In this document: positions 21,509 through 34,492 of the stretch, in pieces
How the letters are laid out: each line of letters starts with the position of its first letter
Numbering within the stretch: the first letter of the stretch is position 1
Assembly (NCBI RefSeq): GCF_030818015.1
Contig: NZ_JAUSZX010000001.1
Location: 4,154,001-4,218,000 of the forward strand
Direction of reading: 5' to 3'
From: Arthrobacter globiformis
GTDB taxonomy: Bacteria > Actinomycetota > Actinomycetes > Actinomycetales > Micrococcaceae
DNA length: 64,000 nt
Program-made: the position numbers and the translations under genes
Notes under the pieces: generated by a model
What the model was told of the DNA's origin: nothing
The model's input: the letters and a program-made list of their open reading frames with translations, nothing else
Database searches by the model: none

Positions 21509-21603
21509 GCGCGGCCGCGACGCTGCGACCGGATATAACCCTAGCGTGCATGTGACTCAGGTAACAGGAAAATTCTGAATGTTGCAGAAATGGGACTTTC
21601 GCG

Positions 21604-21671
21604 AATGGTCCCCGGACACGCAAATGGTCCGGGGACGCGTGGATTCCAGCGTCCCCGGACCATTTGTGCGT
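21604..21671. repeat. Intergenic inverted repeat (AATGGTCCGGGGACGC)
   Basis: CAAATGGTCCGGGGACGC (21621-21638) is mirrored perfectly at 21649-21666 around a 10-base loop, an 18-bp stem that extends imperfectly outward. A further direct copy of AATGGTCC lies at 21604. The unit differs in sequence from the 32-bp arrays. It could terminate transcription on either strand. Confidence 0.85.
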
Positions 21672-21711
21672 CCTTACGTGTTCGACGACGACGGTCGCCC
21701 TCGTGGGCTGC

Positions 21712-21894
21712 TCAGCTGCGGGTCGGGTCCGGACGCAGCGGCTCAGGGCCGGGGTCGGGCACCGGAAGCGGGCCGGGCGGCTCCGGCGCGGGGATGGGGT
21801 TGGGCGGTGCGGGACGGGACGGGTCCGGCCGCATGGGATCGGGCCCTGGCTCCGGCGGGAACGGCTCTGGTTCGTGCACTGGCGGGATGGTCAT
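21712..21894 (-). CDS. Small proline-rich protein (60 aa)
   Basis: The minus-strand ATG follows a strong GAGGGGG site. The product is about 45% proline, beginning MTIPPVHEPEPFPPEPGPDP and continuing in P-x-P units with Glu, Asp and Arg, with no signal peptide or membrane helix. It lies wholly between the STAS-like gene and the divergent peptidase gene. I do not know a function; the ribosome binding site and isolated position are the evidence. Confidence 0.5.
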   Translation of the reverse strand: MTIPPVHEPEPFPPEPGPDPMRPDPSRPAPPNPIPAPEPPGPLPVPDPGPEPLRPDPTRS

Positions 21895-22064
21895 GCTTCC
21901 CCCTCAAAGGCTCGTGTGGGTTCCTATTGCTAACGCGTTCAGGATACGCCCGGCGCCGGAGCGGGGACAGGGCCCCGGCCGGCTTGCGGGAGCGTCAAAA
22001 GCCAGCCTCTCCCCCGGTAGCGAACGGCCGCCCAAATGTCAGAGCGGCTCTATATATTGAGGGA

Positions 22065-24290
22065 ATGACCCACACTCCGCTGCAGCAACCCGCAAGCTCC
22101 TCCGCCGTTGCCACGCCCCGGCCGCCCGTCGCCAAGAGGGTGCCCACAGAGCGCACGCACCACGGGGATACTTTCGTGGACCAGTACGAGTGGCTGCGGG
22201 ACAAGGAGTCCGAGGAGGTCGTGGCGCACCTGAAGGCCGAGAACGCATACCAGGAGGCCCTCACGGCACACCAGGAACCGCTGCGCGAGGCCATCTTCCA
22301 GGAGATCAAGGGCCGGACCAAAGAGACAGACCTGTCCGTTCCGAACCGTAAGGACGACTGGTGGTACTTCAGCCGCTCCGTCGAGGGCAAGGAATACGGC
22401 ATCCAGTGCCGCGTCCGGGCCCAAAACGCTGGCAACCCGGTGGCGGACTGGACTCCGCCGGCGGTAGAGGCCGGCGTCGAAATCCCTGGCGAAGAAGTCC
22501 TGCTGGACGGCAACGTCGAAGCCGAAGGCAAGCCGTTCTTCTCGGTGGGCGGCACAGCTGTGACCATCGACGGACACCTTTACGCCTACGCCGTGGACAA
22601 CGCTGGCGACGAGCGGTTCACCCTGCGGATCAAGGACCTGCGGACCGGGGAACTGCTGCCGGATGTCATTGAGAACGTCTTCTACGGCGTGTCCTTCTCC
22701 CCGGACGGCACCCGCATCTTTTACACCGTGGTGGATGACTCGTGGCGGCCATACCAGGTCAAATCCCACGTCCTGGGAACTCCGGTCACCGACGATGAGG
22801 TGATTTACCAGGAGGACGACGCCGCCATGTGGCTGGGCTTTGAGCTCTCCTCAGACCGGCGCCACCTCGTCCTCGGCATTGGCTGCTCCGAGTACAGCGA
22901 GACGCGCCTGCTGCGCTTTGACGACCCCGACGCCGGCCTGTCCACCGTCATTTCCCGCAACGAACGCGTGCTGTATGAGGCCGAGCCGTTCCTGCTCGAT
23001 GGCCAGGAACGCATCCTGATCACCCACAACCGCGGCGCCGTGAACTCGATGGTCTCGCTTGTGGATCCGGCCGAGCTGTCCAAGCCGCTGGCCGAGCAGC
23101 ACTGGACCACCGTCGTCGAGCATTCCGACGACGTCCGGGTCAACGGTGCGGGGGTCACTTCCACCCACCTCGTGGTCTCGATCCGGAAGGACACCATCGA
23201 GCGCGTCCAGGTGATGTCGCTGTCCGGGCTGGGGACCCCAGCCCAGCAGGCGCCGGTGGAACCCGCGTTCGACGAGGAACTGTACACCGCGGGGGTCGGT
23301 GGCTCCGACTACGAGGCTCCCGTGATCCGACTGGGCTACACGTCCTACTTCACGCCGTCGCGCGTGTATGACTTCGTGCTGCCCACCCCGGAGCAGCCAG
23401 CCGGCGAACTCCTGCTGCGCAAGGAAAGTCCGGTGCTGGGCGGCTACGATGGCTCGGATTACGTGGCCACGCGCGAATGGGCCGAGGCCGCCGACGGCAC
23501 CCGCGTCCCCCTGTCGGTGCTGCGGCACAAAGCCGTCAAGCAGGACTCGACGGCGGCCGGACTGGTTTATGGCTACGGCTCGTACGAGCTCAGCATGGAT
23601 CCGGGTTTCGGCATAGCCCGGCTTTCGCTGCTGGACCGCGGAGTTGTGTTCGTGATTGCCCACATCCGCGGAGGCGGTGAACTCGGCCGGCACTGGTACG
23701 AGGACGGCAAGAAGCTCAGCAAGAAAAACACGTTCACGGACTTCATCGCGGCCACAGACTGGCTGGCGCAGTCCGGCTGGGTGGCTCCGGACCGGATCGC
23801 CGCGCTGGGCGGGTCCGCCGGCGGGCTCCTCATGGGCGCCGTGGCCAACCTCGCCCCGGAGAAGTACGCCGCCATTGTGGCGCAGGTTCCGTTCGTGGAC
23901 GCGCTGAACTCCATCCTGGACCCGGAGCTGCCGCTGTCTGCCCTTGAGTGGGAGGAATGGGGCAACCCCATCACCGATCCCGGGGTGTATGAGTACATGA
24001 AGTCGTACACCCCGTACGAGAACGTCCGCGAGGTGGCCTATCCCAAGATTGCTGCGGTCACATCCTTCAACGACACCCGGGTGCTCTACGTGGAGCCGGC
24101 CAAGTGGGTGCAGGAACTCCGCAACAAGACCACGGGCAGCGAGCCGATCCTCATGAAAATCGAGATGGACGGCGGCCACGGCGGGGCCTCCGGCCGCTAT
24201 GTGCAGTGGCGCGAGCGGGCCTGGGACTACGCTTTCATCGCGGATTCGCTGGGTGCCAAGGAATTGCTGCCAGACGCCGGGCTCAAGTAA
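22065..24290 (+). CDS. ptrB: Prolyl oligopeptidase family (S9) peptidase, oligopeptidase B type
   Basis: ATG 22065 is preferred: the frame runs back to 21579, but that stretch crosses the inverted repeat and the proline-rich minus gene. The 741-residue protein has a seven-bladed propeller (about residues 65-410) and an alpha/beta hydrolase domain with VIAHIRGGGELGRHWYEDGK, the nucleophile in ALGGSAGGLLMGAVAN (Ser), FNDTRVLYVEPAKW (Asp) and GGHGGASGRY (His). This is the S9A oligopeptidase B pattern, cleaving peptides after basic residues in the cytosol. No signal peptide is present. Confidence 0.9.
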   Translation: MTHTPLQQPASSSAVATPRPPVAKRVPTERTHHGDTFVDQYEWLRDKESEEVVAHLKAENAYQEALTAHQEPLREAIFQEIKGRTKETDLSVPNRKDDWWYFSRSVEGKEYGIQCRVRAQNAGNPVADWTPPAVEAGVEIPGEEVLLDGNVEAEGKPFFSVGGTAVTIDGHLYAYAVDNAGDERFTLRIKDLRTGELLPDVIENVFYGVSFSPDGTRIFYTVVDDSWRPYQVKSHVLGTPVTDDEVIYQEDDAAMWLGFELSSDRRHLVLGIGCSEYSETRLLRFDDPDAGLSTVISRNERVLYEAEPFLLDGQERILITHNRGAVNSMVSLVDPAELSKPLAEQHWTTVVEHSDDVRVNGAGVTSTHLVVSIRKDTIERVQVMSLSGLGTPAQQAPVEPAFDEELYTAGVGGSDYEAPVIRLGYTSYFTPSRVYDFVLPTPEQPAGELLLRKESPVLGGYDGSDYVATREWAEAADGTRVPLSVLRHKAVKQDSTAAGLVYGYGSYELSMDPGFGIARLSLLDRGVVFVIAHIRGGGELGRHWYEDGKKLSKKNTFTDFIAATDWLAQSGWVAPDRIAALGGSAGGLLMGAVANLAPEKYAAIVAQVPFVDALNSILDPELPLSALEWEEWGNPITDPGVYEYMKSYTPYENVREVAYPKIAAVTSFNDTRVLYVEPAKWVQELRNKTTGSEPILMKIEMDGGHGGASGRYVQWRERAWDYAFIADSLGAKELLPDAGLK

Positions 24291-24411: not shown

Positions 24412-24429
24412 TAGTAATCCTGCTTACTA
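24412..24429 (+). promoter_or_regulatory. Palindromic operator/promoter, site 3
   Basis: TAGTAATCCTGCTTACTA is an 18-bp imperfect palindrome (centre CCTG in place of CATG), again running into TACTAT. It is 73 bp upstream of the leader-bearing repeat protein gene. It is the best symmetrical match to sites 1, 2 and 4. Confidence 0.65.
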
Positions 24430-24501
24430 TTGACGGGCATACGGGCTCGGTGCAGCTGTCCGCTGGGGGCGGCGAATCCGGCGCCGGAACTGGAGCATAG
24501 C

Positions 24502-25266
24502 GTGAGCAATGAACAGGGACTGACCCCGCTTTCCGACGACGAACTGAATGCGCAGGGGGGCACTGCCCTGCCGGACAAGGAAGTCGCGTCCGTACTCGAC
24601 CTCAACGCCGACCTCGACCTGGGCATCAGCGCAGCTGCGCCGATCGACCTCGCCGTGGCGGCCAACGCGAACGTCGCAGCCCCCATCGACGCCGCGGCCT
24701 CGGCGAACGTTCTGTCCTTCGGTTCAGAGTCGCAGGCCCTCGCTGACCAGGGAGTCATCATCGACCAGGGAATCACCGCCGACGCCACGGCAGACTCCGT
24801 CCAGGACAGCACCATCACCCAAGGGTCAGGCGCAGAGGGCGGGACTGCAGATGCCGGCGGGACTTCGGATGCCGCGGGCACGGGTACCGCCGCAACTGGC
24901 GCCGAGGCAGCCGGTGCAGGCACCGCCGATGCTGCGCCCCTGCCCGACGGGACGCTTCCCGACGGGACCATTCCGGACGGGACAGGTGTCGGCGCCCTTC
25001 CCGTGGATCCGTCCACTGCCCTCGACGGAGACCTCCTCAACGTCAACGTGGACCTCGCGGCCGACGCCGACATCGCCGCCCCGATCAACGGCGCCGTGGC
25101 CGCGAACGCCAACGTCGCAGCGCCCATTGACGCCGCAGTGGCAGCCAACATCGGCTCGATCGACAGCGACGCCTTCGCCGTGGCCCAGCAGGACGCCATC
25201 ATCACCCAGGATATCGACGGCGAGGCCACCGCATCGGCAGATCAGCAGTCCGATCTGCAGCAGTAG
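24502..25266 (+). CDS. Repeat protein with double-glycine-like leader (candidate protease substrate)
   Basis: GTG 24502 begins a 254-residue protein. Residues 7-20 read LTPLSDDELNAQGG, close to the LSxxEL...GG leader of double-glycine exported peptides; there is no Sec signal. After the GG are two homologous Ala/Asp/Asn-rich repeats (about residues 33-100 and 178-250), each with NANVAAPIDAA and an (V/A)II(D/T)Q element, joined by a Gly/Ala/Thr linker with DGTLPDGTIPDGTG. It has no Cys or aromatic-rich core, so it may be fibrous or extended. The next gene begins 7 bases later and encodes an M50 protease with a PqqD-like domain. The role as substrate is inferred. Confidence 0.75.
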   Translation: MSNEQGLTPLSDDELNAQGGTALPDKEVASVLDLNADLDLGISAAAPIDLAVAANANVAAPIDAAASANVLSFGSESQALADQGVIIDQGITADATADSVQDSTITQGSGAEGGTADAGGTSDAAGTGTAATGAEAAGAGTADAAPLPDGTLPDGTIPDGTGVGALPVDPSTALDGDLLNVNVDLAADADIAAPINGAVAANANVAAPIDAAVAANIGSIDSDAFAVAQQDAIITQDIDGEATASADQQSDLQQ

Positions 25267-25273
25267 TTCCTGA

Positions 25274-27868
25274 ATGAGCGCCAAACACAGCGGGCCGCCC
25301 GGCAGGGGCGGCCCGCCGGCCTCCCCTTCACCAACACCCGATGCGAATCCCGCAACCGGCCCGATTCCATCACCCGGTCCGACGGCGGCGGGTTCCTCCC
25401 CCGCCCAAGGCGAGCGGACCGCCGTCGTAATGAGTCCTGGCACCAATCACGGCGAAGCGCCCGTGCGGGCGGAGGGAATCCAGCTCATTGGCGAGGCCAA
25501 GGGATCGGGCTACCGTGAGGCCCCCTCGCTGGTCCGCCGTGCGGACGGCCAGACCATCCAGCTCACGCGGCTGCTTTTTCAGGTCCTTGACGCCATCGAC
25601 GGTGTGCGGGATCTCGATGAGATCGCCGAGGTGGCGAGCACGCGGTCCGGCCGGCTCATCAGCGAGGACAACGTCAGGACACTGATCGAGGGCCAACTGC
25701 TCCCCCTCGGCCTGCTGCGGCTGGCGGACGGGTCGCAGCCCGAGGTCCGCAGGGCGAATCCGCTGCTGGGCATGCGGTTCCGGTACACGGTCACGGACCC
25801 CGCGCTCACCCGGAAGCTGACAGCGCCGTTCGCTGTGCTGTTCAATCCACTGATCGTGGCAGTTGTCGCCGCGGGATTTCTGGCCTCGTGCTGGTGGGTT
25901 TTGATGGTCAAGGGCCTGGCGTCCGCCACGCACGACGCCTTCGCGAACCCGTGGCTGCTCCTGTTGATTTTCGCCGTGACGGTCCTGTCGGCCGGCTTCC
26001 ACGAATTCGGCCACGCGGCGGCCGCACGCCGGGGCGGCGCCACTCCGGGCGCGATGGGTGCCGGGCTCTACCTCGTCTGGCCCGCCTTCTACACGGACGT
26101 CACCGATTCCTACCGGCTGGGGCGCGGCGGCAGGCTTCGCACGGATATCGGCGGGCTGTACTTCAACGCCATGGTTGCCGTTGCCACCATGGGTGCCTGG
26201 TGGGCCACGGGTCTCGATGCGCTGCTCCTGGTGGTGCTCACGCAGATCCTGCAGATGGTGCGCCAGTTGCTGCCCCTGGTCCGCTTCGACGGCTACCACA
26301 TCCTTGCCGATGCCACGGGCGTGCCGGACCTGTTCCAGCGGATCCGTCCCACTTTGCTCGGGCTCCTGCCATGGCGGTGGGGCAAGCCCGAACCCGAGGC
26401 GCGGGCCCTCAAGCCGTGGGCGCGCGCCGTCATCACGGTCTGGGTCCTGGTCACTGTCCCGATGCTGCTGGTCAGCCTGGTGCTGACGGCCGTCTCCTTT
26501 CCGCGGCTCCTGGGCACCGCGTGGGCGAGCCTGCAGCACCAGCAGGCCCTGCTGTCCGGCAGCCTGGCGGATGGGAACTTTGCCGACGCTGCTGTGCGGT
26601 TCCTGGCGATTGCCGCCGTCGTCCTTCCTGTGGCTGGCATGGTGTACATGCTGCTCCGGCTGGCGCGGCAGCTCATCACCGGGCTCTGGACCAAGACCCG
26701 GGGCAAGCCGCTGCAGCGCGCCACCGCGATGGCAGCGGCCGGCGCCGTCGTTGCCGGGCTGGCGTGGGCCTGGTGGCCGCTGCCTGACAACTACCGCCCG
26801 GTGCAGCCGTACGAACGCGGGACACTCCTCGACGCCACGGCCACCGTCTATCCCGCCCTGGCTGCCCCAGACGGAGCCCTTCAGGAAGGCCGGAGTGGGC
26901 AGACGGTGGCGCTGTGGCCGGACGGCACGGCGCTGCCCACCCGGGAGCAGCCGCAGCTCAGCATGGTCCTCGTGCCGAGGCAGGCAGCGGAACCGGCTTC
27001 CGCGCCCGGCGAGCCGGAGCCGGACGAGGGCGCGGATAAAGCAGCCGGCGGCGCCGCGCCTCCGTCGTGGGTCTTTCCATTCGACAAGCCCCCGGCCCCG
27101 GAGGAGTACGGCAACCAGGCACTCGCGGTGAACACGACCGACGGATCCATCACCTACGATGTCGCGTTCGCGCTGGTGTGGGCAGAGGAGGGACCGGTGG
27201 ACACTCGCAACGAGGCGTACGCATTCGCTAACTGCGCGGACTGCGCAGCGGTGGCCATCGGATTCCAAGTGGTACTCATCGTTGGTCAGGCGGATGTGGT
27301 GGTGCCCGAGAACCTTTCCGCCGCCGCGAACTACAACTGCGTCCGGTGCCTGACATACGCCCTGGCCAGCCAGCTGGTGCTCACGCTGGAAGGGCCGCTC
27401 AGCGGGGATGGCATGGCCCGGCTCAATGCGCTGTGGCAGGAGATCGCTGAGTTCGGACGCACCCTGCAGGGTGTTCCCCTGTCCGAGATCGAGGGACGGT
27501 TGAGCGCCTACAAGGCACAGCTGATGGACATCATCCGGACCGACCCCAGCGCCAATCCCCAGGCCGGCACCAGCACTCAGTCGCCGGGCTCCACGCCATC
27601 GCCCGGGGCTGGTGACGGGGCTGACACGGACCCGGGATCCGAGTCAGGTGAACCGACGCCGGGTGGGAGGTCGCCGGGTGGGCCGCCACCGGGTGTGCCA
27701 TCTCCAGGAACGACGGCGGACCCCGCGGTTCCCACGCAAGGAACGGGAACGACGCCGGTCCGCGCCACTCCTGCGCCGGCCAGCACTGGCGCCGCACCTG
27801 CCCCCACTACTGGGGCTCCCGGCACCGCAGCGGCTGCGTCACCGGCCCAGGAGCCGGCAGCACCGTAG
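25274..27868 (+). CDS. PqqD-like domain / M50 zinc metalloprotease fusion with C-terminal Cys-pair domain
   Basis: The 864-residue protein has a Pro/Ser-rich start, a PqqD-like winged-helix domain (about 65-155; APSLVRRADGQTIQL to GQLLPLGLL), and then several transmembrane helices. Within these are the zinc motif HEFGH (residues 243-247) and VRFDGYHILAD (Asp339), the M50/site-2-type active site. After more membrane helices comes a soluble domain with C654-x2-C657 and C689-x2-C692 (NCADCAA, NCVRCLT), possibly a metal site. A long Gly/Ser/Pro/Thr tail ends it. PqqD-like domains bind leader peptides, which fits the leader-bearing product of the upstream gene, 7 bases away. Substrate and outcome are unproven. 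Confidence 0.82.
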   Translation: MSAKHSGPPGRGGPPASPSPTPDANPATGPIPSPGPTAAGSSPAQGERTAVVMSPGTNHGEAPVRAEGIQLIGEAKGSGYREAPSLVRRADGQTIQLTRLLFQVLDAIDGVRDLDEIAEVASTRSGRLISEDNVRTLIEGQLLPLGLLRLADGSQPEVRRANPLLGMRFRYTVTDPALTRKLTAPFAVLFNPLIVAVVAAGFLASCWWVLMVKGLASATHDAFANPWLLLLIFAVTVLSAGFHEFGHAAAARRGGATPGAMGAGLYLVWPAFYTDVTDSYRLGRGGRLRTDIGGLYFNAMVAVATMGAWWATGLDALLLVVLTQILQMVRQLLPLVRFDGYHILADATGVPDLFQRIRPTLLGLLPWRWGKPEPEARALKPWARAVITVWVLVTVPMLLVSLVLTAVSFPRLLGTAWASLQHQQALLSGSLADGNFADAAVRFLAIAAVVLPVAGMVYMLLRLARQLITGLWTKTRGKPLQRATAMAAAGAVVAGLAWAWWPLPDNYRPVQPYERGTLLDATATVYPALAAPDGALQEGRSGQTVALWPDGTALPTREQPQLSMVLVPRQAAEPASAPGEPEPDEGADKAAGGAAPPSWVFPFDKPPAPEEYGNQALAVNTTDGSITYDVAFALVWAEEGPVDTRNEAYAFANCADCAAVAIGFQVVLIVGQADVVVPENLSAAANYNCVRCLTYALASQLVLTLEGPLSGDGMARLNALWQEIAEFGRTLQGVPLSEIEGRLSAYKAQLMDIIRTDPSANPQAGTSTQSPGSTPSPGAGDGADTDPGSESGEPTPGGRSPGGPPPGVPSPGTTADPAVPTQGTGTTPVRATPAPASTGAAPAPTTGAPGTAAAASPAQEPAAP

Positions 27869-27936: not shown

Positions 27937-28743
27937 ATGCTCTCGGCGCTCAAGAAATACCTGCTGCTTCCCAAACTGGTGAAGCTTTCCTCCAACGCGC
28001 CCAAGGACGCCAGCCTCGCCTGGGACCAGTACTGGGGCAGGGTCGGGGCAACCGGAGCGCGCGGCGACGTGCTGTGGGATTCTGGCAGCGACCACGAGCT
28101 GCAGGCGTATCTGGCGCACTTGACGCGGCAGCTGGACGCCAGCCTTCCCATCGTCGATGTCGGGTGCGGCAGCGGCGCCTTCAGCCGCGCGCTTGCCGCC
28201 TACTTTCCGCATGTTCTGGGGGTGGACGTGTCGGCCAACGCCATAGCCCGCGCAGCCGCCGAGTCCGAAGGGCTCGAGCGGGTCTCCTACGTGTCGGCCG
28301 ACATGACAGGACCCGCGGGCACCCGCGCTGTGACCGACGCCCTGGCCGCTGCCGGGTTCTCCGGTGAAGCCAACATCTTCATCCGGGGCGTCCTGCACGT
28401 ACTCAAGAGACCTGCGCAGGCGGCCCTGGCCGCGCAGCTGCACCCCCTGGTGGGCAAGCGGGGCCGCGTGTTCCTGGCCGAGACCGACTTCCGCGGGAAT
28501 CCGATCCAGTACGTCAGCCATCTCGGAGCCACGCTGCACTCCATCCCCGGGCCTCTCGAGAAGGCCATCCGCGGACTGCCCATGCCCGGGCGTTTCGGCA
28601 CCGAGCAGCGCAGGCGGGCGTTTCCCGAGGCCCGCTGGGATGTGGTGGAAGACGGTCCGGTGACCATCGAAACCCGCCCCCTCACATCCGTTGACCGCCC
28701 GGAAAAGATCCCGGGCTATTTCGCGGTGCTCCAGGCCCGCTGA
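27937..28743 (+). CDS. Class I SAM-dependent methyltransferase
   Basis: The 268-residue protein has the SAM-binding motif IVDVGCGSGAFSRAL (about residues 71-85), the acidic end of strand 2 (VLGVDVSANAI), motif II YVSADMTG and a later ANIFIRGVLHVL. The N-terminus (YLLLPKLVKLSSNAPKDA) is unusual. It follows the M50 gene by 68 bases, with GTTCAAACTGAAC palindrome at 27891-27903 in the gap, so it may be separately transcribed. Whether it modifies the repeat protein is unknown. Confidence 0.85.
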   Translation: MLSALKKYLLLPKLVKLSSNAPKDASLAWDQYWGRVGATGARGDVLWDSGSDHELQAYLAHLTRQLDASLPIVDVGCGSGAFSRALAAYFPHVLGVDVSANAIARAAAESEGLERVSYVSADMTGPAGTRAVTDALAAAGFSGEANIFIRGVLHVLKRPAQAALAAQLHPLVGKRGRVFLAETDFRGNPIQYVSHLGATLHSIPGPLEKAIRGLPMPGRFGTEQRRRAFPEARWDVVEDGPVTIETRPLTSVDRPEKIPGYFAVLQAR

Positions 28744-29294: not shown

Positions 29295-31007
29295 ATGGTC
29301 CAGGCACCGGCGGAGTACCCCTCCGCACCTCGCGAAGCGGTGGTCGCACTCACGGATGCCGCCCGCCTGGCTTCCGTGGCGTCTGTCCTCACCCATGCCG
29401 GGTTCACCGTCCGCAAGGCGCCCGACTCCGGATCCCTCGCCCAAGAGCTGGAAGGCAACCGGCCCGCCGTCGTACTTCTTGATACGGCGCTGACGGACGG
29501 TTACCGGTGGGAAGGCACACCGGTGCTGCTCCTGGTGGACCTCGCCGGTGACTTCGACCTTGCCCAGCTTGAGCCCTGGGGCATCGCCGATTACATCTCC
29601 CGCGACGCGGCTCCCCCGGAGCTGACCCACCGGGTTGAGACCCTGATACGCCGGGCAAGGGAACGCCGCCGCATCCGGGCCGCAGCCGAGTTCCTGCGCG
29701 AAAGCCTCCGCAACGTCTCCGCCGCCATCCGCGGAACCAACAGCCCCCAGCAGATGGCCGGCCACCTGGTCCGCGGCTTTGGGGAGTCCCTCGCGGTGGA
29801 CCACGTCTGGTTCACCACCTTCCAGGATTCGCGCGTGCCACGGATCAGCGCCCAGTGGTCGCGGCCAGGCCATGCCAAGCTGCCGGACACGCTCCGAACA
29901 TTCGAGGACGCGGCCCGGGAGCAGACCACGTCGCTGTGGTCGGCCGCCGAGGCCCTGGCCGTTCCGGATCACCGGACGGACCAGTCTGCCGCCCTGGCCG
30001 AGGGACTGCGGAAATGGTCCGGCCTGGCCTCTGTCCGCGCTTCGGTTTGCTTGCCCGTGGGTGAGGGCGAGTCGGCGCTGGGGGTCATCTGGATCGCGCA
30101 GCTGAACGAGCCGCGTGACTGGACCAGGGCCGAGATTGCCCTCATCCAGCACGTGGCCGGCAACCTCGCCCACAGCCTCATCCAGGGTCATCTGATCAGC
30201 GCGCAGCTGCAGGTGCTGCAGCAGCTCCGGGAGCTGGACAAGGCAAAAACGGACTTCCTGGCCACGGTCAACCACGAGCTCCGCACGCCGCTCACTTCCA
30301 TCACGGCCTACCTCGACATGATCCGCGACGGCGCAGGCGGCCCCGTTCCCCCGGGCATCGAGTCCATGATGGACGTCATCTCGCGGAATTCAGACCGGCT
30401 CCGGCGGCTGATCGAGGACATGCTCACAGTCTCGCAGCAGGACGGGTCCGGCAACCTAAGCCTGAAGCAGGTGGAGCTCGGCCAGGTCCTGCGGATCGTC
30501 GTGGCCGCACTGCGCCCGCTCGCCGATTCGCGGAACGTCACCATCACCGGCGCCGACTCGCACGAGGACGTGAAGGTCCAGGCCGACGAGGCCCAGCTGG
30601 AGCAGGTCTTTACCAACATCGTTGCCAACGCCATCAAGTTCACCCCGAACGGCGGCCGAATCAGCATCAGCTTCATGACCGCCGCTTCCGAGGCCGGCAG
30701 TCCGTACGCCGTCGTCAACGTCACGGACACCGGCGTCGGAATTCCGGAGCAGGAAATCGCCCGGGTCTTTACCCGTTTCTACCGGGCGTCCAACGCCTCG
30801 TCCGCGGCCATTCCGGGCAGCGGACTGGGCCTCGCCATCGCGCATGACATCGTCCGGCGCCACGGCGGTTCTCTGGACCTGTCCTCCGAGCTGGGCGAGG
30901 GAACGATCGTCTCCGTGCGCCTTCCGGTCGACGGCCCCCAGGCCGAAGAAACGGACGACGACGAGGCCGACGGCGACGAAGCGGCCGGAGCGCCCCAAAC
31001 CGACTGA
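29295..31007 (+). CDS. Sensor histidine kinase with N-terminal receiver-like and GAF domains
   Basis: The 570 residues contain a degenerate receiver-like domain (about 10-115; VVALTDAARL, VVLLDTALTD, PVLLLVDL), a GAF domain (about 135-290), HisKA with phospho-acceptor His327 in ATVNHELRTPLTSI, and HATPase_c with N-box VANAIKFTPNGG, G1 VTDTGVGIP and G2 GSGLGLAIAHD. No transmembrane segment is visible, so it is cytosolic. No response regulator gene is adjacent; it is an orphan here. An acidic tail closes the protein. Confidence 0.92.
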   Translation: MVQAPAEYPSAPREAVVALTDAARLASVASVLTHAGFTVRKAPDSGSLAQELEGNRPAVVLLDTALTDGYRWEGTPVLLLVDLAGDFDLAQLEPWGIADYISRDAAPPELTHRVETLIRRARERRRIRAAAEFLRESLRNVSAAIRGTNSPQQMAGHLVRGFGESLAVDHVWFTTFQDSRVPRISAQWSRPGHAKLPDTLRTFEDAAREQTTSLWSAAEALAVPDHRTDQSAALAEGLRKWSGLASVRASVCLPVGEGESALGVIWIAQLNEPRDWTRAEIALIQHVAGNLAHSLIQGHLISAQLQVLQQLRELDKAKTDFLATVNHELRTPLTSITAYLDMIRDGAGGPVPPGIESMMDVISRNSDRLRRLIEDMLTVSQQDGSGNLSLKQVELGQVLRIVVAALRPLADSRNVTITGADSHEDVKVQADEAQLEQVFTNIVANAIKFTPNGGRISISFMTAASEAGSPYAVVNVTDTGVGIPEQEIARVFTRFYRASNASSAAIPGSGLGLAIAHDIVRRHGGSLDLSSELGEGTIVSVRLPVDGPQAEETDDDEADGDEAAGAPQTD

Positions 31008-32535: not shown

Positions 32536-32967
32536 ATGCCAGAAGCGACAGTGTTTCCCGGTGCCGCACCGCTGCGGCCGGAGGCCTTGACTCGCCCGGC
32601 TCCCGCCCCCGTCGTTGCCTTCACTGTGCTGCCCGGCCCCGCCGTGAAGGCGGTGCTCCCGCGCGGCGCCGATCTGAACGAGACCGCGGCCGCCCAGCTG
32701 TACAGCCGCCTTGGTGAGCTGGCCGGGGACCGGAGGGTCGCCGTCGTGCTTGAACTGACCGGGGTGAGGTCGGTAAACCGCGCGGCGCGGGCCGCCTACG
32801 CGGCGATCCCCTCGGTGTCCGCCTGGGCGATCCTGGGCGAATCCCCCGTGGACAGGCTGCTGGGGCACTTTCTGCTGGGCGGCGAATTCAGCTCCGTGCC
32901 GGCCCGCTATTTCACCGCCGAAAACGACGCCCTGGACTGGTTGAGCTGCCTTGACGATGTTCTCTAA
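32536..32967 (+). CDS. STAS/SpoIIAA-like protein, paralogue B
   Basis: The 143-residue protein has a Pro/Ala-rich N-terminal extension and then the same fold as the product at 28785, with VAVVLELTGVRSVNRAARAA, WAILGESPVDRLLGHFLLG and RYFTAENDALDWL. The ATG follows the TPR stop with no gap. Its end overlaps the GGDEF-EAL gene. It may be a partner-switch component passing a signal to the c-di-GMP enzyme; this is inferred from position only. Confidence 0.75.
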   Translation: MPEATVFPGAAPLRPEALTRPAPAPVVAFTVLPGPAVKAVLPRGADLNETAAAQLYSRLGELAGDRRVAVVLELTGVRSVNRAARAAYAAIPSVSAWAILGESPVDRLLGHFLLGGEFSSVPARYFTAENDALDWLSCLDDVL

Positions 32968-34492
32968 CGACGACCCGCGGCTCGGGAAGCTGCTCGACGG
33001 CATCGTCCGACTGGCGGCCGGGGAACTGCACTCGCGCATTGAGATTTCCGAGGCTCGGGACGAGCTGGATGCGGTGATCATGGGCACCAACCTGCTCGCC
33101 GAGGACCTGCAGATCATCTACCAGGAGCTCGAGGAGCGCGTGGAATCGCGCACGCGGATGCTCAACGCGGCGCACAAAGAGCTCCAGCAGATGGCGCTCA
33201 CCGATTCCCTGACGGGACTCTACAACCGGTCGGCGCTGGTCAGCGCCGTCAACGGTGCCCAGGCGGAAGCGGCCGACGGCGGGCTGCCGCCGGCGCTGCT
33301 GTTGCTGGACCTGGACGCCTTCAAGAGCATCAACGATTCACTGGGCCACTCTGTGGGTGACCAGGTGCTGGCCACTGTGGGGGAACGGATCCGTGCGTGC
33401 GTGCGCGACGGCGACATGGTGGCCCGGCTGGGCGGCGACGAGTTCGCCGTCCTGCTCCCTGCCACCACCCCGGCCAAGGCGTCCGCCGTCGGAAACCGGA
33501 TCCTGGATTCCCTTAACGGGACCCTGGAAGTGGACGGCAAGACCATCCGCTGCGGCGCGAGCCTGGGCCTGAGGATTGCCGATCCCGGCGAGACGTCCGA
33601 GGAACTGCTGATGGAGGCAGACATCGCGATGTACGCCTCCAAGGCCGACGCCCGCAACAAGCTGCGGGTGTTCGAACCGGCCATGCTCCACGCCCGGCAG
33701 CTCCGCAACCAGCTGGTCGGGGAACTGCGCGAGGCCATCGCCACCGACCAGCTGGTGCTGTACTACCAGCCGGTCATCGAGCTTGCCTCAGGGAAAATCG
33801 AGGGTGTGGAGGCCCTGGTCCGCTGGGGACACCCCAAGCGCGGCCTGATCATGCCGGACGAATTCATCCCGGTCGCCGAGGAGACGGGACTCATTTCGGA
33901 GCTCGGCAACTGGGTGCTCAGGAACTCCGTGGAGCAGCTCCGGCGCTGGCGCAGTTCCCCGGAAACCGGCCGCCACAACTTCGACATGCGCATCAACGTC
34001 TCGGCCGCGGACCTGCAGCGGCTGGAGTTCATCGAGGACGTGCGGGACGCGCTCACCGCCGCGAACCTCGAGCCTGCGCTGCTGGTCCTGGAGCTGACGG
34101 AGAGCGACATCATCAAGGGCAACGAGCTCGACCGGTACACGCTCGCCAGCCTGCGGCAGCTCGGTGTGGGCCTGGAGATCGACGACTTCGGCACCGGGTA
34201 TTCCTCCATCAGCTACCTGCGGCGCCTGCCCGTGGACCGCGTCAAGGTGGACCGGACACTGCTCACGGCACTCGGCAGCGACCCCGCGCAGCCTGCACTG
34301 ATCGCGGCCATCCTGCAGCTCATCCGGGCCTGCGGGCTCGAGGCCGTGTGGGAGGGCGTGGAAAACGCGGAGCAGGCCGAGCATCTGCGGAACACCGGCT
34401 GCGTCAGCGGGCAGGGGTACTACTTCAGCCGCCCCCTCCCCGCGGCCGAGTTCACCGAACGCCTCGCGTGGCAGGACATCTGGCCCGGCTGA
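32957..34492 (+). CDS. GGDEF-EAL cyclic-di-GMP enzyme with N-terminal HAMP-like region
   Basis: The 511 residues start with a HAMP-like coiled region (GIVRLAAGELHSRIEISEA), then a GGDEF domain with intact GGDEF (159-163) and D(L/F)D-type metal site LLDLDAFKSIND. The EAL domain has EAL (285-287), INVSA, ELTESD, EIDDFGTGYSS, VKVDR and the EGVE loop, so all catalytic residues of a phosphodiesterase seem present. Both synthesis and hydrolysis of c-di-GMP are possible. No transmembrane helix is seen, so it is cytosolic. The ATG (TTG 32951 is an alternative) overlaps the STAS-like gene by 11 bases. Confidence 0.93.
   Translation: MFSNDDPRLGKLLDGIVRLAAGELHSRIEISEARDELDAVIMGTNLLAEDLQIIYQELEERVESRTRMLNAAHKELQQMALTDSLTGLYNRSALVSAVNGAQAEAADGGLPPALLLLDLDAFKSINDSLGHSVGDQVLATVGERIRACVRDGDMVARLGGDEFAVLLPATTPAKASAVGNRILDSLNGTLEVDGKTIRCGASLGLRIADPGETSEELLMEADIAMYASKADARNKLRVFEPAMLHARQLRNQLVGELREAIATDQLVLYYQPVIELASGKIEGVEALVRWGHPKRGLIMPDEFIPVAEETGLISELGNWVLRNSVEQLRRWRSSPETGRHNFDMRINVSAADLQRLEFIEDVRDALTAANLEPALLVLELTESDIIKGNELDRYTLASLRQLGVGLEIDDFGTGYSSISYLRRLPVDRVKVDRTLLTALGSDPAQPALIAAILQLIRACGLEAVWEGVENAEQAEHLRNTGCVSGQGYYFSRPLPAAEFTERLAWQDIWPG

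Follow-up and report, generated by a model that had tools for sequence, protein, structure and literature searches.

Architecture of the locus

The 64,000-nucleotide stretch of the soil actinobacterium Arthrobacter globiformis analysed here (the window; C1:4154001-4218000 of a genome that is 99.91% complete) carries two adjacent genes. One encodes a repeat protein with a conserved N-terminal leader (the precursor), and the other encodes an 864-residue protein in which a predicted RiPP (ribosomally synthesized and post-translationally modified peptide) recognition element (RRE) is joined to a membrane M50 protease and to a domain with two C-x2-C pairs (the CxxC domain) (Table 1). Only 7 bases separate the stop of the precursor (25266) from the start of the 864-residue open reading frame (ORF) (25274), and the nearest named relatives of both proteins are found in Arthrobacter. 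The two genes probably constitute a single leader-guided processing module, in which intramembrane cleavage would release an extracellular, perhaps self-assembling protein.

Table 1. Positions in the window of the two genes and of the features discussed in the text (TM, transmembrane; aa, amino acids).
Feature	Position	Strand	Basis
Palindrome TAGTAATCCTGCTTACTA, candidate operator	24412..24429	.	Upstream of precursor gene
Leader-bearing two-unit repeat protein (precursor), 254 aa, GTG start	24502..25266	+	ORF, homologues, position upstream of protease
Leader motif E-L-x7-L-P-D-K, residues 14-26	24541..24579	+	Leader alignment, motif counts
Repeat unit 1, residues 31-107	24592..24822	+	Unit alignment, period test
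Repeat unit 2, residues 178-254	25033..25263	+	Unit alignment, period test
RRE-M50-CxxC fusion protein, 864 aa	25274..27868	+	ORF, family searches, AlphaFold2 model
RRE/PqqD-like domain, residues 60-152	25451..25729	+	AlphaFold2, VIA-align, Foldseek; weak Pfam PqqD
Membrane M50 core, about 7 predicted TM helices, residues 176-499	25799..26770	+	Predicted helices, AlphaFold2 model
Zinc motif HEFGH	26000..26014	+	H243, E244, G246 and H247 invariant in 52 aligned sequences
FDGYH, presumed third zinc ligand Asp339	26285..26299	+	D339, G340 and Y341 invariant in 52 aligned sequences
CxxC domain, predicted extracytoplasmic, about residues 610-757	27101..27544	+	hhalign, hidden Markov model (HMM) scan

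The precursor consists of two related units of about 77 residues each, connected by a Gly/Thr/Asp-rich linker. The unit-to-unit alignment scores 173, against a mean of 53.1 and a maximum of 84 over 300 shuffles. Homologues are numerous (3526 with E<=0.01 among 8000 scored), and many of them (P0001-P0120) are publicly named 'peptidoglycan-binding protein', though the copy in the window has no Pfam or NCBIfam match. A sequence search of the PDB with the precursor returned no match. The AlphaFold2 model of the precursor was set aside for its low confidence (predicted local distance difference test, pLDDT, 48.9; predicted template modelling score, pTM, 0.22), and the strands that it places at residues 77-106 and 224-253 carry no weight.

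From the N- to the C-terminus, the AlphaFold2 model of the 864-residue protein comprises a low-confidence start, the RRE, the M50 core, the CxxC domain and a low-confidence tail. The RRE is modelled as a winged-helix-type fold of three strands followed by three helices, and it matches the RRE/PqqD fold in VIA-align and Foldseek while Pfam PqqD gives only a weak match, in 6/8 members. Likewise, the M50 core adopts a site-2-protease fold in the model, with matches to 3b4r, RseP and SpoIVFB, and its Pfam Peptidase_M50 score lies under the cut-off (13 of 27.2 bits). The predicted topology, with the N-terminus inside and the C-terminus outside, broadly fits the loop charges. Sequence searches of the PDB with the protease, the RRE and a separately encoded CxxC protein turned up weak matches only, to chains that seem unrelated. 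A PHROGs search found nothing convincing. Among relatives from the GTDB species genomes described below, the two C-x2-C pairs are present in 80/80 and HExGH in 79/80, the exception being a broken locus (L173). The first-pass annotation, made from the letters of the window, had proposed a PqqD-like N-terminal domain, an M50 zinc site in the membrane and two C-x2-C pairs, and all three are borne out by the model and by this conservation.

Pairing of the two genes

The distribution of the two genes was followed in 296 genomes sampled evenly from the host's class and in the best 80 of 470 stretches of GTDB species genomes that encode a relative. In the class sample, the repeat-protein profile matches 26/296 genomes and the RRE-M50 core 88/296, and the core matches fall into two sets, with 51 places at E<=5.5e-65 and the rest at E>=5.7e-20. 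Twenty-three of the 26 genomes with a repeat protein also have a strong core match; in G178 the match is confined to an M50 fragment where the contig ends, and G213 and G275 were set aside because their repeat-protein matches are marginal (E 7e-4 and 7e-6). The best 80 GTDB stretches come from Arthrobacter, Pseudarthrobacter, Sinomonas, Nocardioides, Phycicoccus, Kribbella, Mycolicibacterium, Georgenia, Blastococcus and other genera; the protease clade occurs across Actinomycetota. A repeat protein lies upstream of the protease in 78/80 of these loci; the remaining two have just a piece of it there, one cut by the contig start (L169) and one by a broken frame (L173). The distance from the precursor to the first possible protease start is 6-9 bases in 58/78 loci. 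The adjacency pointed out for the window is nearly invariable, and common loss of the neighbouring protease gene among relatives of the repeat protein was not observed.

A constant leader on varied precursors

The precursors share a leader motif of exact spacing, [EDQ][LIMF]-x7-LP-x-[RK], and the leader of the repeat protein takes the longer form L-[ST]-x-x-E-L-x-x-[EQ]-x-x-T-A-L-P-D-K-E. In the 78 leaders of the GTDB loci, conservation is nearly complete at L -13 (77/78), E -9 (78/78) and L -8 (77/78), and complete (78/78 each) at LP, K, E, V, S at +7 and L at +9. We examined all 51 strong core places of the class sample, namely the window and 50 others (39 + 11). With this rule fixed, the motif was found upstream of the protease in 44/50 loci besides the window. 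In four of the six loci without it the protease match begins <=216 bases from the contig start (L076, L212, L213 and L222), and the other two (L104 and L106) carry near-variants that fail the exact rule. Outside the class the motif is present in 8/9 loci (it is missing from L205), in some cases followed by very different cores (L208-L211). As a control, only 9 matches occur in 825,298 residues elsewhere in the 50 loci, all frames counted, and the weaker M50 relatives, which include the daptide locus L114, have the motif in 0/8 scored, from a set of 10 loci of which two lack a scoreable match; in most, the upstream sequence is limited to about 1.5 kb.

The upstream genes are of several unlike kinds, with strongly varied cores behind the constant leader. 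Some are long two-unit proteins as in the window; others are tandem peptides, two or three per locus and mostly 66-82 residues long (...EELPDREAMSLINANLAAPVNAAVAANVLSDNS...); and further kinds occur in the families f37 (...AELLPGREALGKLKFSFNKTTNV...) and f36 (...AELLPDRLTLAAVEINRHEF...). Judged from sequence and model, a constant leader, changing cores and a domain of leader-binding type correspond to the layout of a RiPP precursor system, with a leader-core precursor encoded beside a predicted leader-binding maturation enzyme.

The leader of the window reads ELNAQGG, and it had been likened to double-glycine leaders. Such a leader would be cut by a C39-type ABC exporter, in which case the M50 protein would be incidental. 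The leaders do resemble those of double-glycine bacteriocins in their acidic and hydrophobic character, in the E-L pair and, in some members, in the GG itself. However, no more than 15/78 leaders have GG at the proposed place, the others having QA, AG, GA, GI and so on, and Peptidase_C39 has no match in the host genome, while the same search was positive in 8/14 control genomes. With the M50 gene constantly adjacent as well, this explanation is extremely improbable, and we rejected the double glycine as the processing signal. What stands of the initial leader is its LSDDEL part, which is kept across homologues; the GG is lost in most.

The CxxC domain and the ancestry of the module

In the short-peptide loci the protease stops short of the CxxC domain. 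In three of them (L075-L077) a separate CxxC protein of 233-240 residues is encoded directly after the protease, and its start, judged by eye, resembles a Sec signal peptide. Comparison of the separate and fused domains as profiles in hhalign gave a probability of 99.8% and an E value of 1.2e-28, and a more distant form occurs in the f37 group (97.4%, E 9e-12). When an HMM built from 10 sequences (5 fused and 5 separate, themselves among the loci scanned) was applied, the domain was found fused in 15/15 full-length long-repeat loci, window included, and in L094, and in a separate frame in 13 loci. The scan found no CxxC domain in L080, L081, L092, L096 (cut), L097, L098, L100, L101, L105, L106, L113 (cut) and the daptide locus L114. 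The domain accompanies some precursor types and, because it has a signal-like start when separate, is predicted to work outside the cell. For the CxxC domain and the precursors alike, Pfam and NCBIfam gave no convincing match. In L076 (2525-3316) and L077 (8437-9222; both in protease orientation) the separate CxxC gene is followed by a lipoprotein-like gene of about 260 residues, of which the L077 copy has no Pfam match.

In a quick tree of 62 RRE-M50 cores with several long branches, 16/16 long-repeat rows fall into one starred clade (100) and the f37 group into another (100). The outgroup, which we chose ourselves (L114 and three weak relatives), lies beyond long branches. The long-repeat form makes up a single lineage next to several with short peptides, and growth of the precursor may therefore have gone together with fusion of the CxxC domain, although the tree leaves the direction unproven.

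Properties of the product and proposed mechanism

The long precursors are acidic proteins with hardly any Lys or Arg. After the leader motif, 78 of them contain 34 such residues in 16,904 (0.20%), with none in 45 precursors and at most one in 77, and Cys is found in 0 of 78; in the window, residues encoded by 24580-25263 include no Lys and no Arg. The C-terminal residue is Gln in 67/78 long precursors (in the window as well), compared with 17/64 in L075-L113 (long ones included), 2/13 outside the class and 0/12 in L214-L221. After each NANVAAPIDAA segment, an 18-residue period was detected in which every second residue is conserved (A-x-A-x3-Q-x-S-x-I-x-Q-x-I). In the 72 of 78 precursors with both anchor strings found, the identity at lag 18 is 0.29 in unit 1 and 0.36 in unit 2; 0/500 column shuffles reach either value at that lag, and 5/500 (unit 1) and 0/500 (unit 2) do so over all lags. 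This alternating sequence pattern suggests stacking of beta strands outside the cell.

From the features computed directly (domain make-up, gene pairing, common leader, split or fused CxxC domain, periodicity) we infer leader binding, a cut site, export, a role for the CxxC domain and beta assembly as follows. The RRE of the 864-residue protein would bind the leader of the neighbouring repeat protein and hand it over to the zinc site of the intramembrane protease in the same chain, where cleavage at or soon after LP-x-[K/R] would remove the leader. The freed product, acidic and nearly free of Lys and Arg, would not be tailored by nearby modifying enzymes and would leave on the outer face of the membrane, where the outward CxxC domain may catch, cap or nucleate it, and the product may then stack as beta strands outside the cell. 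The core of this scheme, leader-guided processing by an M50 protease, had been suggested for the window and gains support from the RRE and M50 folds and from the near-invariable leader-bearing neighbour.

The product that we favour is an extracellular beta polymer. In its full form, this scenario describes a Gram-positive extracellular polymer system in which an RRE-guided intramembrane protease cuts a Lys/Arg-free, beta-stacking protein and itself carries it through the membrane without Sec or an ABC exporter, while an outward CxxC domain of similar pattern, fused or co-encoded, nucleates or caps the polymer; surface fibres or coats would have arisen from small leader peptides by duplication and fusion. 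We put forward the full form tentatively, as a reading of fairly low probability. The 18-residue alternation of Ala, Ser, Gln and Ile recalls the amyloids curli and FapC, which have a nucleator, and the likeness rests here on periodicity; unlike in curli systems, the precursors have no Pfam curlin repeat match and curli export genes were not seen. FapC is also the best Foldseek match of the protease model, a weak one (E 0.015, probability 0.33, root-mean-square deviation 14.7), and we infer that it concerns the CxxC domain, the beta part of the protease; it is a hint at most.

Two observations slightly lower the confidence in the proposed module and its polymer product. The loci L214-L221, which had not been inspected before the rule was set, carry the leader motif in 8/8 cases and are not independent, all belonging to the f36 clade that was already represented. 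In addition, low Lys/Arg content is a trait of the long type only: it amounts to 1.84% in a mixed set of 64 precursors of L075-L113 (long ones included), 2.93% in 13 precursors outside the class and 5.10% in 12 of L214-L221.

Relation to known peptide-processing systems

The closest described counterpart is the daptide protease MpaP/DapP (NF041824). In daptides, an RRE is fused N-terminally to an intramembrane site-2 protease, MpaP removes the leader, clusters hold on average 2.3 short ORFs, the leader motif is ELExMEAP, and activity is ascribed to positive charge at both ends, according to Ren et al. 2023 (PMC10036551). Given the MpaP precedent, leader removal by an RRE-M50 fusion is already known in kind.

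Given these similarities, we considered a daptide-like small-peptide factory that secretes antimicrobial or membrane-active peptides, with the long repeat protein as a concatenated version. The shared protease architecture, the several leader-bearing precursors alongside (two or three tandem peptides in sister loci), an E-L...P motif in the leader and the strongly varied cores under a constant leader are all consistent with such a factory. On the other hand, the window protease reaches 101.3 bits against NF041824 (residues 82-384), whose cut-off is 300, and in the tree it lies apart from L114. The leader motif and its spacing are different, a CxxC domain is added, and the precursors extend to a repeat protein of 254 residues whose acidic, nearly Lys/Arg-free long form contrasts with the positive ends of daptides. 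The 9 precursors scanned match no family, daptide precursor models included, while the L114 peptide matches NF041808, and the window's precursor ends in Gln instead of the C-terminal Thr of the daptide model. Besides the precursor, the protease and the CxxC gene, no gene, and no modification gene in particular, recurs at a fixed place in 40 loci and the window, as judged from crude gene calls (codon GC content). ORFs with an ABC-ATPase signature occur in only 4/41 loci, and an ABC-ATPase-like cluster in 7 loci at varied distances. Among the only further ORFs of the window scanned with NCBIfam, 11 between 17.7 and 34.5 kb, none reaches the cut-off of a daptide model, and the methyltransferase of the window scores 26.2 bits against 175 for NF041820. 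We thus rejected membership in the daptides, for the sub-threshold protease and the lack of matches to precursor models or, nearby, to tailoring models, and a daptide-like factory in the wider sense is unlikely.

Among other M50 proteases, the EpeP/YydH/LiaK family (NF058609) aligns with residues 220-347 only, at 30 bits against a cut-off of 225. The epipeptide protease EpeP has a radical-SAM partner. M50 proteases are listed for epipeptides and pearlins, and EpeP, which matures a ribosomal peptide, is thought both to cleave and to export it, according to Eslami and van der Donk 2023 (PMC10885120). The term M50 is absent from the main texts of the RRE-Finder paper (PMC7470986) and of a 2025 structure-based RRE paper (PMC12710340), and the available portion of a 2025 daptide preprint (PMC12338566) contains nothing on the protease. 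A description of the family was not found in the main texts of open-licence PMC papers, to which the search was confined. The processing module is real, widespread and undescribed within this literature; what appears to be new is the clade, the exactly spaced leader, the CxxC partner and the whole-repeat-protein precursors without recurring tailoring genes.

Neighbouring genes and regulatory sequences

Upstream of the precursor lies an S9 peptidase gene, oligopeptidase-B-like (21579-24290), whose ORF as listed probably starts too early, because the domain match begins only at residue 183. A methyltransferase gene (27937-28743) lies on the other side. In flanks of 3.5 kb, where the contig allowed, matches to the S9 peptidase were found in 32/80 relatives and matches to the methyltransferase in 5/80. 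Both therefore look like lineage-specific neighbours and were rejected as parts of the module.

Nine more neighbouring genes of the window were annotated and gave no daptide model; among them are genes for a CBS protein, cytochrome oxidase subunit I, a histidine kinase (29295-31007, about 1.4 kb downstream of the protease) and a GGDEF-EAL (cyclic di-GMP) protein (32951-34492, about 5 kb downstream). RseP and SpoIVFB, whose fold the M50 core shares, act in regulation. Together with the histidine kinase and the GGDEF-EAL protein, this fold would fit regulated intramembrane proteolysis, in which the M50 protein cuts the repeat protein and a signalling fragment of it enters the cytoplasm. Yet the precursor matches no Pfam or NCBIfam family, the CxxC partner has a signal-peptide-like start when separate, and histidine-kinase-like ORFs occur in 6/41 loci at differing places, so that a signalling role is very unlikely.

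A palindrome upstream of the precursor gene, TAGTAATCCTGCTTACTA, occurs at two places in the genome, compared with 0 for the reversed pattern. The second copy (C1:755942-755959) lies 5' of an ORF (L195) whose small product combines a membrane start with a long charged part, and a shared regulator of the two places is possible. A palindrome-like site 5' of the precursor was seen in 4/60 relatives scanned, out of the 80 GTDB loci (L115, L116, L137 and L155). A promoter scan found none, and 2 terminator-like sites were seen where 1.3 are expected.

Implications

These results suggest that whole repeat proteins, too, are handled by the leader-plus-RRE logic known from small modified peptides. They link a large number of Arthrobacter-type proteins, many of which bear the name 'peptidoglycan-binding protein' without a domain match, to a protease and a partner domain, and candidate substrates can be found in actinobacterial genomes by the exactly spaced leader motif. 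With Lys and Arg nearly absent from the long products, tryptic proteomics would hardly detect them. If the extracellular beta polymer that we favour is the true product, the module would be one way in which Actinomycetota build surface fibres or coats.

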